Assembly (NCBI GenBank): GCA_017556045.1
Contig: JAFZFF010000082.1
Span: 1-56,991 of the forward strand
Reading direction: 5' to 3'
DNA: 56,991 nucleotides
From: Bacteroidaceae bacterium
GTDB lineage: Bacteria > Bacteroidota > Bacteroidia > Bacteroidales > Bacteroidaceae
The first letter of the stretch is position 1. Each line of letters starts with the position of its first letter. Shown here in pieces: positions 20,529 through 47,446 of the stretch. Position numbers and translations under genes: made by a program. The notes beneath the pieces were generated by a model. That model was not told the DNA's origin. It saw only the letters and a program-made list of their open reading frames with translations, and did no database searches.

Positions 20529-20536
20529 TGTAGGTA

Positions 20537-20644
20537 TTTTTCTCGGTTTGCGGTATCTTTAGCCTACTCTGTAGGCTTAAATTAGGCTGCGGCTCGGAAA
20601 TATTCAAATAAATTTGATATTTCGCTCGCCTTGCACTAATTTTG
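20537..20644 (+). promoter_or_regulatory. Structured promoter element upstream of lysS, shared with argS
   Basis: From CTCGG at 20542 to the end of the -7 element at 20644 this is 103 bases long, the same length as the related element before argS (45497-45599). Order: stem 1 (AGCCTAC/GTAGGCT, 20561-20577), constant linker TTAGGCTGCGGCTCGG (20582-20597), stem 2 (GAAATATTCAAAT/ATTTGATATTTC, about 20597-20623), constant CGCTCGCCTTGCACTAA and promoter -7 TAATTTTG (20637-20644). TTTG at 20613-20616 gives a 20-base spacer. Stem sequences differ from argS but pairing is retained. Confidence 0.75.
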
Positions 20645-20672: not shown

Positions 20673-22400
20673 ATGAACGTATTAGAACTTAGTGAACAAG
20701 AGATTGTAAGACGTAATAGTCTGAACGAATTGCGTGCTATGGGCATCGAGCCCTATCCCGCCGCAGAGTATGTGACCAATGCTTTTTCTACCGACATAAA
20801 AGAGGAGTTCAGCGATGAAGCAGAGCCTCGTAAGGTATCTATCGCAGGCCGCTTGATGAGCCGTCGTGTGATGGGTAAGGCTTCATTTATCGAGTTGCAG
20901 GACTCTAAAGGACGTATCCAGGTATACATCACTCGTGACGACATCTGCCCCGAGGAGAACAAGGATATGTACAACGTGGTATTCAAGCGCTTGCTCGATA
21001 TCGGTGACTTCGTAGGTATCGAGGGTGTGGTATTCCGCACTCAGATGGGCGAGATCAGCGTACATGCCCACAAGCTCACCGTATTGTCTAAGAGCATCCG
21101 TCCGCTGCCTATCGTAAAATATAAGGATGGCGTTGCTTACGACAAGTTTGATGATCCCGAGTTGCGTTATCGCCAGCGCTACGTAGACCTCGTGGTAAAC
21201 GATGGCGTGAAGGAGATCTTCATCAAGCGCAACAAGGTGTACACCTCAATGCGTGAATTCTTCAACACACGCGGCTACATGGAGGTAGAGACTCCCGTAT
21301 TGCAGTCTATCCCCGGTGGAGCGGCAGCACGCCCCTTCATCACACACCATAACGCACTGGACATCCCCTTGTACTTGCGTATCGCTAATGAGCTCTACCT
21401 CAAGCGCCTCATCGTAGGTGGTTTCGAGGGTGTATACGAGTTCTCTAAGAACTTCCGCAACGAAGGTATGGACCGCACTCACAACCCCGAGTTTACTTGT
21501 ATGGAGATCTACGTATCTTACAAGGACTACAACTGGATGATGGCCTTCACCGAGCAGATGCTTGAGAAGATCTGTCTCGACGTAAACGGCACTACCGAGG
21601 TACAGGTGGGTGACAATGTGATCAGCTTCAAGGCTCCCTTCGCACGTCGCACCATGACAGAGGCTATCAAGGAGTTCACCGGTATCGACATCACCGGCAT
21701 GGACGAGGCTCAGCTCCGCGACGTATGTAAGCAGCTCGGCGTAGAGATTGACGAGACCATGGGTAAGGGTAAGCTCATCGACGAGATCTTCGGCGAGAAG
21801 TGCGAGGGCAACTACATCCAGCCTACCTTCATCACCGACTACCCCATCGAGATGTCGCCCCTCTGTAAGCGTCATCGCGAGAACCCCGAGCTCACCGAGC
21901 GCTTCGAGCTTATGGTTAACGGTAAGGAGTTGTGTAATGCATATAGCGAGCTCAACGACCCCATCGACCAGCTTGGCCGCTTCCAGGAGCAGTTGCGTTT
22001 GAGCGAGAAGGGCGACGATGAGGCAATGTTTATTGACAACGACTTCGTGCGTGCTCTCGAGTATGGTATGCCTCCCACCTCAGGTATGGGTATCGGTATG
22101 GACCGCCTCGTGATGCTCATGACCGGTCAGCAGACCATCCAGGAGGTACTCTTCTTCCCGCAGATGCGTCCTGAGAAGAAGTCTCCCAAGGATCCCGCAA
22201 GCAAGTATATGGAGCTGGGCATCGCTGAGGAGTGGGTACCTGTGATCCAGAAAGCAGGATACAAGCTCGTAGCTGACATGCAGGGTGTAAATCCGCAGAA
22301 GGTACACATGGACATCTGTGGTGTAAATAAGAAGTATAAGCTGGAACTGAAGAATCCCACCGTGGATGAGGTGACAGCTTGGATCGAAAAAATAAATTGA
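20673..22400 (+). CDS. lysS: Lysine--tRNA ligase (class II)
   Basis: 575 residues from ATG 20673 (an in-frame TTG at 20664 would add three residues; homologues begin [17 protein letters not shown]). The enzyme charges tRNA-Lys with lysine using ATP. An OB-fold anticodon-binding domain occupies about 50-150 ([20 protein letters not shown]); class II motif 2 is [15 protein letters not shown] and motif 3 is [14 protein letters not shown]-terminal extension of about 70 residues after motif 3 ([14 protein letters not shown]...) is seen in Bacteroides LysS. Codon use suggests high expression. A tRNA-Lys gene is in the same window at 7118. Confidence 0.95.
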
Positions 22401-45491: not shown

Positions 45492-45599
45492 TTTCTCTCG
45501 GCGCGCACTACTTTAAGCTATTTTTAGCTTGAAGTTAGGCTGCAGCTCGGAAAAACACAAAACAAGTTTTGCTTTTTCGCTCGCCTTGCACTAACTTTG
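45492..45599 (+). promoter_or_regulatory. Structured promoter element upstream of argS, shared with lysS
   Basis: Order as before lysS: stem 1 (TTTAAGCTA/TAGCTTGAA, about 45512-45533), linker TTAGGCTGCAGCTCGG (45535-45550), stem 2 (GAAAAACACAAAAC/GTTTTGCTTTTTC, about 45550-45578), constant CGCTCGCCTTGCACTAA, and -7 TAACTTTG (45592-45599). TTTG at 45568-45571 is 20 bases upstream, the same spacing as for lysS. Confidence 0.75.
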
Positions 45600-45628: not shown

Positions 45629-47446
45629 ATGATAGAACAAAAGCTGGTACAGAGTGTCGCTCAAGCGATACAGGCATTGTACGGACAGGCTGCAGAACCT
45701 GCTCAAGTGCAGTTGCAGAAGACTAAGAAAGAGTTTGAAGGACATCTAACCCTCGTGACATTCCCCCTCTTGCGCATCTCACGCAAGGGCCCTGAGCAGA
45801 CCGCACAGGAGATCGGTGAATACTTGGCTGCACATGAGCCTATGGTGGCAGCATTCAACGTCATCAAGGGATTCCTCAATATCACCATCGCTGCATCGGC
45901 ATGGGTAGAGTTGCTGAACACCATCGATAGCGATGCTAAGTATGGCATACAGACACCTACAGAGAATTCACCTCTGGTGATGATCGAGTACTCATCGCCC
46001 AACACTAACAAACCTCTCCACTTGGGTCACGTGCGCAACAACCTCCTCGGCTATGCGCTGGCCAATGTAATGGAAGCTAATGGTAACCGTGTGGTGAAGA
46101 CCAACATCGTCAACGACCGAGGCATACACATCTGTAAGTCAATGCTCGCATGGCAGAAGTATGGCGAGGGCGAGACTCCCGAGTCATCAGGCAAGAAGGG
46201 CGACCACCTCATCGGTGACTACTACGTGGCTTTCGACAAGCACTACAAGGCTGAGGTGGCTGAGATCATGGAGCGCGAAGGCTGCACCAAGGAGGAGGCT
46301 GAAGCTAAGTCACCCTTGATGGCTGAGGCACGCGAGATGCTCGTAAAGTGGGAGGCTGGCGACCCCGAAGTGCGCGGCTTGTGGCAGATGATGAACGAGT
46401 GGGTATACGCTGGATTCGACGAGACATACAAGATGATGGGCGTAGACTTTGACAAGATATACTACGAGTCACAGACCTACCTCGAGGGTAAGGAGAAGGT
46501 GCTCGAAGGTCTTGAGAAGGGTTTCTTCTTCCGCAAAGAGGATGGCTCTGTATGGGCTGACCTCACAGGCGAAGGCCTTGACCATAAGCTCTTGCTCCGT
46601 AGCGATGGCACATCAGTATATATGACTCAAGATATCGGTACCGCTAAGCTCCGCTTCCAGGACTACCCCATCAACAAGATGATCTATGTCGTAGGTAACG
46701 AGCAGAACTACCACTTCCAGGTGCTCTCAATCTTGCTCGACAAGCTGGGCTTCGACTGGGGTAAGGATCTCGTGCACTTCTCATACGGTATGGTAGAGCT
46801 CCCCGAGGGTAAGATGAAGAGCCGCGAGGGTACCGTAGTAGATGCTGATGACCTCATGGCAGAGATGATCGCAACCGCTCGCGAGACATCTAAGGAGCTG
46901 GGTAAGCTCGACGGACTCACTGCAGAGGAGGCTGAAAATATTGCTCGCATCGTAGGTCTCGGAGCACTCAAGTACTTCATCCTCAAGGTGGATGCTCGCA
47001 AGAACATGACCTTCAATCCCAAGGAGTCTATCGACTTCAACGGCAACACAGGTCCCTTCATCCAGTACACCTACGCTCGTATACAGTCAATCTTGCGCAA
47101 GGCACAAGAGTTGAAGGTTGAAGGTTTAGTGTTGAGTGATGGTACCGCGAACTCCCTCAACTCTCAACTCTCAACCCTCAGCGAGAAGGAGATGGTGTTG
47201 ATACAAAAACTCGCAGAGTTCCCCGCAGTAGTAAAGGACGCAGGCGTAACATACACACCTTCGGTAATCGCTAACTACGTATACGACCTCGTGAAGGAGT
47301 TCAACCAGTTCTATCACGACTACAGCATCTTGCGTGAAGAGAACGAAGCAGTGAAGAGCTTCCGCCTCGTACTCTCCGCTAACGTAGCTAAGATCATCCG
47401 TCTCGGTATGGGACTGCTCGGCATCGAGGTTCCTGAGAGAATGTAA
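45629..47446 (+). CDS. argS: Arginine--tRNA ligase (class I)
   Basis: 605 residues. ArgRS charges tRNA-Arg with arginine. The N-terminal Add-1 domain spans about 1-100; the ATP-binding motif is HLGH (131-134, in YSSPNTNKPLHLGHVRNN), the second class I motif is represented by GKMKSREGT, and the C-terminal helical anticodon domain starts near 480. Residues about 491-515 (KVEGLVLSDGTANSLNSQLS and on) are encoded by short tandem words (TTGAAGG, CTCAACT) identical in style to intergenic repeats and replace a shorter loop of relatives. Codon use elsewhere is strongly biased. Confidence 0.95.
   Translation: MIEQKLVQSVAQAIQALYGQAAEPAQVQLQKTKKEFEGHLTLVTFPLLRISRKGPEQTAQEIGEYLAAHEPMVAAFNVIKGFLNITIAASAWVELLNTIDSDAKYGIQTPTENSPLVMIEYSSPNTNKPLHLGHVRNNLLGYALANVMEANGNRVVKTNIVNDRGIHICKSMLAWQKYGEGETPESSGKKGDHLIGDYYVAFDKHYKAEVAEIMEREGCTKEEAEAKSPLMAEAREMLVKWEAGDPEVRGLWQMMNEWVYAGFDETYKMMGVDFDKIYYESQTYLEGKEKVLEGLEKGFFFRKEDGSVWADLTGEGLDHKLLLRSDGTSVYMTQDIGTAKLRFQDYPINKMIYVVGNEQNYHFQVLSILLDKLGFDWGKDLVHFSYGMVELPEGKMKSREGTVVDADDLMAEMIATARETSKELGKLDGLTAEEAENIARIVGLGALKYFILKVDARKNMTFNPKESIDFNGNTGPFIQYTYARIQSILRKAQELKVEGLVLSDGTANSLNSQLSTLSEKEMVLIQKLAEFPAVVKDAGVTYTPSVIANYVYDLVKEFNQFYHDYSILREENEAVKSFRLVLSANVAKIIRLGMGLLGIEVPERM

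Follow-up and report, generated by a model that had tools for sequence, protein, structure and literature searches.

The promoters of lysS and argS in the window, which is the whole 56,991-nucleotide stretch analysed here (contig 71 of a 2.54 Mb draft genome that is 78% complete), each contain a copy of a short folded sequence. We consider it likely that this sequence is a non-coding mobile promoter unit, which inserts in one orientation at TTT|G of a -7 box and rebuilds the promoter there. The mode of movement and the use of the promoter are the parts that we infer; the insertion site, the size, the structure, the patchy distribution and the location at gene starts come from direct comparison of sequences. 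The unit would enter the TANNTTT|G -7 box of a working promoter, between TTT and G. The old box would be left behind about 83 bp farther upstream (as TANNTTTA in this genus), while the TANNTTT brought by the unit would join the G of the host, completing a -33/-7 promoter whose distance to the gene is unchanged. Because the promoter is rebuilt at an unchanged distance, an insertion should do little harm. The rebuilt box would in turn be a target for further units, giving tandem and sometimes mosaic arrays.

Build and folding of the unit

At lysS, the inserted unit covers positions 20561..20643 of the forward strand (83 bp, from A to TTT, with boundaries set from comparisons) and is followed by the host G at 20644. 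The preceding stretch, 20535..20560, is a remnant of the former lysS promoter and ends in the old -7 box TATCTTT (20554-20560). The unit starts with stem 1, a hairpin seen in both sequence and folding (AGCCTAC-TCT-GTAGGCT, 20561..20577). It continues as stem 2, an imperfect palindrome that includes both promoter boxes and is modelled by the covariance model R1 (20577..20644, matched with 94.6 bits). By sequence, the -33 box TTTG at 20613..20616 lies in the 3' arm of the AT-rich tip. After a spacing of 20 nt, the -7 box TAATTTTG at 20637..20644 forms the 3' arm of the outer stem, and its last G belongs to the host. The start codon of lysS (lysine--tRNA ligase, 20673..22400, forward strand) is 28 nt 3' of this box. 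In the window the old GTATCTTT of lysS is retained and the next base is now A; unit-free lysS orthologues (L116, L119, L122 and L127) have GTATCTTTG or GTACCTTTG at the place of the old box.

The argS unit covers 45515..45598 of the same strand (84 bp), with the host G next to it at 45599, and follows TACTTT (45509..45514), which by eye appears to be what is left of an older, now degenerate -7 box. R1 matched 45530-45599 with 78.5 bits. The -33 box TTTG at 45568..45571 and the -7 box TAACTTTG at 45592..45599 were again assigned from their letters, and the start codon of argS (arginine--tRNA ligase, 45629..47446, forward strand) is 29 nt 3' of the latter. In general, the units are non-coding and about 70-87 bp long, and consist of a small hairpin followed by an imperfect palindrome (62-68 nt in the two copies of the window), whose 3' arm contains the -33 TTTG and ends as the TANNTTT -7 box. 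The boxes and their spacing agree with the consensus (-33 TTTG / -7 TAnnTTTG) quoted in an excerpt of PMC7366714. A sequence-only reading of the window had described a 103-bp element shared by the two genes, with two stems. Its constant letters and both stems are at the places it gave, but the natural unit is 83 bp or 84 bp: the first 18-19 bases of the element are the older promoter remnant ending in TATCTTT or TACTTT, and its second stem forms only the tip of a longer imperfect hairpin, with the -7 box itself as the outer arm.

Folded as single-stranded DNA, the lysS unit was more stable than all of 200 shuffles (z of -4.55 and -4.73 for the two strands). The argS unit was less striking (z of -2.35 and -2.42, with 5 and 4 of 200 shuffles equal to it). 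The corresponding z values for RNA folding were -4.38 for the lysS unit and -2.17 for the argS unit. We collected 160 units from fetched loci, 155 of them distinct; the sources were a list of 147 matches (30 loci fetched), 120 hand-picked regions and the loci of the own genome. Among these, the side triplets pair as GGC/GCC (66), GCC/GGC (45), ACC/GGT (19) and GGT/ACC (4). Pairs between the left arm and the variable -7 letters are ATTAG/CTAAT (78), GATAG/CTATC (39), GTTAG/CTAAC (12) and GGTAG/CTACC (7); the search pattern behind the 147 matches fixed the right arm to CTCGNY and CTANY and left the left arm free where it was compared. Many units have GCTTCGC or CCTTCGG as the tip of stem 1, and the opposite strand of the former, GCGAAGC, is an unusually stable DNA mini-hairpin.

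Of the 110 distinct units whose tip is 25 nt long, 108 were placed in a gap-free alignment (L238:2673-2740, L005:3384-3451 and units with other tip lengths were omitted). Overall, 95.0% of its cells are paired, and 11 of the 23 base pairs show double-sided changes, in 263 cells, where cells (as in the wobble counts below) are sequences and not independent events. The covariation score was 0.279 compared with 0.093 in shuffles, none of 500 being as high, and slid partners gave at most 0.059. Four of five covariation measures were reached by none of 500 shuffles. The fifth, the number of further pair types, was 26 compared with 23.2 in shuffles, and 35 of 500 shuffles reached it. The earlier proposal of compensatory changes that conserve structure therefore holds in 108 copies.

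Some unpaired letters are conserved as well, namely TCGG opposite CNCTC, although one G-C among them may pair. Their persistence while the paired letters vary speaks for a fixed regulatory DNA structure, in which the palindrome is selected as a cruciform or as the site of a structure-specific protein, ties the promoters of growth genes to supercoiling or growth rate, and has rarely moved. Taken together with the distribution described below, we regard this reading as unlikely.

Empty and filled promoters

Promoters with and without the unit can be compared at two genes. At uxuA, one genome is empty (G012) and three are filled (G017, G009 and G003). Between G012 and G017, the difference is exactly 83 extra bp between TATCTTT and G, with flanks identical at 50/50 positions before and 49/50 after. 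At lptF, the unit is missing from G004, whereas 84 extra bp stand at the same position of the box in G013 and G010; the flanks agree at 28/30 positions before and 46/50 after, and the ungapped upstream match drops to 37/50. For both genes, the insertion point is between TTT and G of a pre-existing TANNTTTG box. The old box at lptF is TATCTTT and the new one TAATTTT, which indicates that the new box arrived with the unit. Since an R1 unit was found at only 3 of 14 uxuA loci, gain of the unit in the filled clade is the simpler reading there, while the difference at lptF may reflect either gain or loss.

The same arrangement was seen in the collected units. A TANNTTTR box lies 14-28 nt 5' of the palindrome in 107 of 158 units (100 ending in A, 7 in G), compared with 20 of 943 shifted control windows. 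In the other 51 an intact upstream box is missing, and several of them have a degenerate box by eye. In the 52 cases with different old and new boxes, the left arm fits the new box 47 times and the old box 3 times, so the right-hand box belongs to the unit. The two unit ends in these cases have TTT only in common, and the unit is largely palindrome. The letters of old and new boxes agree in 55 of 107 units compared with 29.7 expected, an excess due in part to like units standing together in arrays. In other genera, the base after the internal TTT is by eye G or T and not A, and such variation is expected if this base is the first of the next unit.

Arrays differ by whole units. Three consecutive units stand at aspS in the own genome, and L200 exceeds L222 by a single 84-bp unit that belongs to a different sequence family. 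The differences in the flank-matched comparison are often 82-87 bp or about twice that, with many rows redundant and some upstream matches being unit against unit. Array differences in unit steps would be expected from spread by homologous recombination between repeats and hairpin template switching alone, in which no transposase takes part. This explanation also agrees with the identical palindromes at different loci, and hairpin-templated correction would likewise make the arms complementary. However, such correction would tend to erase the conserved mismatches, and the flank up to the old TATCTTT looks unlike the unit at uxuA and lptF, so that a single-unit insertion there needs more than recombination between repeats. 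We therefore consider recombination alone an unlikely explanation.

Other sequences appear to have entered the units in turn. In L314, L015, L013 and L268, a unit seems to hold a second palindrome, about 71-76 bp long (AAC..TTGA...GAGATTT or similar), at TT|G of its -33 box; the one at L013 fits only with a boundary set by eye. After computational removal of nested insertions from 8 rows, the paired fraction was 0.571 compared with 0.457 in shuffles (maximum 0.607), which is not significant. In the test with 11 rows, 2 became identical to a known hairpin and 3 came within one mismatch of one; shuffles gave 0.9 on average and 3 at most, so this result is not significant either. Further types of insert were seen within hairpins at L355, L358, L289 and L225, for example AAGGACTGCCTTAGCACTCGG... 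and CCTTTAGGTCGCTGGCCGAAGG...

Distribution and downstream genes

The sequence of the unit recurs far beyond chance. With at most 2 mismatches, the 20-mer CTCGCCTTGCACTAWYTTTG has 29 copies in the draft genome and none in a reversed control. Three of the 29 are internal to tandem arrays and end in TTTA, which leaves 26 terminal sites in the own genome. All 19 genomes searched in the genus contain a 22-mer version, also with at most 2 mismatches, in 9-52 copies per genome; outside the genus, 1 of 22 genomes does. A covariance-model scan, which the sequence-only reading had called for along with a table of downstream genes, reached further: at E <=0.001 per genome, R1 matched 105 of 151 family genomes from 22 of 30 genera, and 72 of the 106 family genomes of good quality, where the E-values are rough, at most 34 candidates per genome were scored and some genomes are represented by a single weak match. 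The top matches in other genera have E of about 1e-20 and keep the same hairpin, and a record of Phocaeicola massiliensis (L384) is a named carrier with 57 bits. R1 gave no match in 80 named Bacteroidales lysS neighbourhoods (577,596 bases), which at about 7 kb per genome says little about each genome. One exact pattern had 0 matches in viral contigs; there was one match in a plasmid collection and one in a phage collection. Record MT837172.1 (L385), named 'Bacteriophage sp.', contains two tandem units and looks chromosomal from its hemK/prmC-, recX- and comF-like frames (by eye). Also by eye, other sequence families with the same build occur at L147, L200, L185 and L008, for example with boxes GTACCTTT/GTATCTTT and arms GGTAC/GATAC, and are intermixed with the main family in arrays.

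The downstream table ties the units to transcript starts. From 144 terminal units (those ending in TTTG), an ORF start lies within 60 nt of 111, within 100 nt of 123 and within 250 nt of 138; on the outward side, an ORF start lies within 250 nt of 87. Many of the other units stand before RNA genes. At 8 loci, some of them orthologous, tRNA genes (Arg, Ser, Leu, Pro) begin 11-27 nt past the box, a count that leaves out the tRNA of L273 at 377 nt. SRP RNA begins 6 nt past the box at one locus and RNase P RNA 12 nt past it at L016. Two cobalamin riboswitch models share 5 and 8 nt with the box. Judged from the distances to ORFs, tRNAs, SRP RNA and RNase P RNA, the unit most likely acts as a promoter with the start site just 3' of it, and the promoter in use would then be the unit's own.

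This position bears on an alternative raised by the sequence-only reading, a cis-acting RNA regulator of synthetases (attenuator, riboswitch or T-box-like) transcribed from further upstream. The lysS unit does fold well as RNA, synthetases are over-represented downstream, and pairing of the TGAANNTAG arm with either the box before it or the box after it is conceivable. Nevertheless, the element ends at the -7 box and thus lies 5' of the start, as the SRP RNA locus illustrates, which makes an RNA leader improbable on position. With start sites predicted, neither a location in a transcribed leader nor a match to a known family was found, and Rfam at the gathering threshold gave only tRNA in the window. 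The wobble counts are mixed. At the variable inner pairs (arm3-4, x0, x and hp3-5, summed), G-T with 22 cells is rarer than A-C with 44, which is against a fold of the sense strand. The two outermost positions, mostly fixed as G-T and T-G, bring the table to 208 G-T, 44 A-C and 304 other cells, which is in its favour. Because the inner counts and the totals point in different directions, wobble neither proves nor excludes a sense-strand fold. All in all, an RNA regulator seems highly improbable to us, and the case would be a warning that covariation 5' of genes need not indicate one.

The mobile promoter reading agrees better with what lies downstream, and the fallback idea of a dispersed promoter-carrying repeat proved apt: near-identical promoter sequences stand ahead of unrelated proteins, tRNAs, SRP RNA and RNase P RNA. 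Synthetases are preferred, with 7 of the 26 own-genome sites preceding trpS, pheS, pheT, leuS, aspS, lysS and argS (all above the NCBIfam cut-offs). The enrichment has P of about 6e-7 if synthetases make up 23 of 1000 transcription units and 2.8e-6 if the total is 800, values that rest on assumed counts (23 synthetase genes, 800-2100 transcription units). Other own-genome sites precede RNase P RNA, prfB, rlmB, threonylcarbamoyladenylate synthase, metK, a gyrase/topoisomerase IV A subunit, dnaE, lon, recG, an ABC-F protein, transporters and others; three downstream genes gave no NCBIfam match at the threshold used. Genus-wide, there are 127 downstream proteins in 94 clusters. In a Pfam scan of 91 of these (three short frames, two of them at tRNA-Pro loci, were left out), synthetase, S1 and translational GTPase families recur amid many single matches.

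Presence of the unit is patchy among congeners at lysS, argS, aspS, uxuA and lptF. At E <=0.01, R1 found a unit adjoining the gene in the gene's orientation at 5 of 18 argS loci (including L147, a weak match of another sequence family), 3 of 14 uxuA loci and 10 of 18 lptF loci (L393, L394 and L398 having 23.6-44.4 bits). At lysS, the scan of 13 loci gave 5 strong and 2 weak units, and five more loci (L123-L126 and L128; 18 in total hold the gene start) have no unit by eye. Ten other aspS loci have, by eye, no unit right at the gene, but in G018 weaker matches, of 24.5 and 42.2 bits, lie about 59 and 192 nt ahead of the aspS start. Orthologous promoters thus occur with and without the unit, as in a mobile promoter. 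The synthetase bias would be in keeping with the fixed DNA structure introduced above, but that reading is at odds with the many orthologous promoters of the same growth genes that lack the unit, and with copies ahead of mannonate dehydratase, MATE and sodium transporter genes.

The copies are not a regulator specific to lysS and argS. Joint control of the two by lysine or arginine had been suggested and is not supported: several same-genus orthologues have unit-free promoters, and many unrelated genes carry the unit. We rejected a basic-amino-acid regulon because of the several orthologous lysS, argS and aspS genes that have no unit. The synthetase link itself was a fair lead, since the bias is towards aminoacyl-tRNA synthetases of all kinds and is not specific to basic amino acids.

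Within genus g1, LysS proteins form two groups, with 96-99% and about 71-77% identity to that of the window; ArgS is less split (93-96% and 76-79%), and this difference suggests gene replacement. The draft has a second lysS (G000:C6:302-2023, L132), whose protein is 98% identical to the window's and whose promoter region is different; it may be a genuine second copy or a sign that the draft mixes strains. A MAG titled Lachnospiraceae (L040, JAMPGZ010000041.1) has a lysS 79% identical to the window's, probably by mislabelling or contamination.

Mode of movement and related elements

The unit may move as a folded DNA strand, by a transposition that duplicates no more of the target than TTT, in the manner of HUH-type elements. 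HUH-type single-strand transposition would give one orientation, a folded unit and a fixed short target, and the -7 box melts when a promoter opens. Melting of the -7 box would explain the target, the orientation and the synthetase bias together. The bias itself may come from the frequent opening of strong promoters, from selection, or from both. In its most specific form, the proposal is that the units are single-stranded DNA transposons whose point of entry is the -7 region where an open promoter complex has melted it. They would use the non-template strand at TTT|G, keep to one orientation, favour busy promoters such as those of synthetases and tRNAs and rebuild the promoter on arrival; we advance this proposal tentatively, as having a modest chance of being correct. 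If true, it would describe a class of promoter-replacing elements that continually rewire growth genes across a bacterial family. More broadly, if the unit is a mobile promoter, the core promoters of essential genes could be exchanged in one step with the gene start kept, and natural genomes would hold the states before and after, exact to the base. A mobile promoter would also account for the unrelated promoter regions of orthologous growth genes in these gut bacteria.

Our searches for Y1 and RAYT-like proteins in the 19 genomes of the genus identified no mobilising enzyme. Y1 transposases are present in 7 of the 19 and RAYT-like proteins in 10. The RAYT-like protein is a 339-aa Y1 protein (L163:1315-2334) with relatives, which matches NF047646 with E=3e-11, below the cut-off; a diverged relative with about 41-45% identity also exists. 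A REP/REPIN-type element moved by such a RAYT (Y1) transposase would account for the palindrome and for the absence of a long target duplication, and of the 13 loci tested, 2 have units near the RAYT-like gene, both at a single orthologous site. Against this, the other 11 loci have no unit end within the fetched flanks of about 1.5 kb or less, so the gene is not generally flanked by repeats. Neither Y1 nor RAYT-like genes were found in several unit-rich genomes, all incomplete drafts, or in G017, G009 and G003, the carriers of the uxuA insertion (88-89% complete). The fetched loci also contained no larger autonomous copy, with the arm pair around an ORF. In these genomes and loci, RAYT-like and Y1 genes do not track the units, and we consider this origin quite unlikely.

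We read the unit as a mobile promoter that resembles MITEs and REP elements: like a MITE, it is short, non-coding, present in many copies and intergenic (as judged from the downstream starts). Five sequence strings of the unit did not occur in the literature text searched, and no title or abstract start among those examined describes it. The parts of the literature examined also gave no description of an element that inserts within a -7 box and rebuilds it. The mobile promoter is already known as a kind. Putative mobile promoters were reportedly described by Matus-Garcia et al. in 2012 as short, repeated, promoter-bearing sequences ahead of unrelated genes, a study cited in PMC8049555. The likeness lies in promoter-bearing repeats spread before unrelated genes; the present unit would differ in being folded, in having a defined insertion point in the -7 box and in rebuilding the promoter. 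The idea of a mobile promoter would thereby gain a defined unit, a defined target and a testable structure.

Several other elements share parts of the build. The BOX elements of Streptococcus pneumoniae are modular with a variable number of modules, form hairpins and lie near gene starts. The modular hairpin build near gene starts is shared, whereas phylum and sequence differ, and we know of no BOX element inserted into a core promoter. Integron attC sites are short imperfect hairpins in which structure, bulges and an internal loop are conserved rather than sequence, and in this description they resemble the unit. REP elements, according to an excerpt of PMC3733652, are 20-40 bp long, have GTAG or CGTC tags and are associated with RAYT transposases; they too are small dispersed palindromes, sometimes in tandem, and the unit differs in carrying promoter boxes. 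The BrickBuilt MITE of Porphyromonas gingivalis, as described in the portion of PMC4596501 consulted, consists of 23-nt tandem repeats with a leader and a tail (one copy is 991 nt), makes target duplications of varying length and was not found outside P. gingivalis. That portion contains no unit of the present kind. One of its copies lies upstream of argS and is suggested there to be or contain the argS promoter. BrickBuilt is the nearest Bacteroidales element in the literature consulted. Like the unit, it is intergenic, repeated and stem-loop forming, and it has promoter activity.
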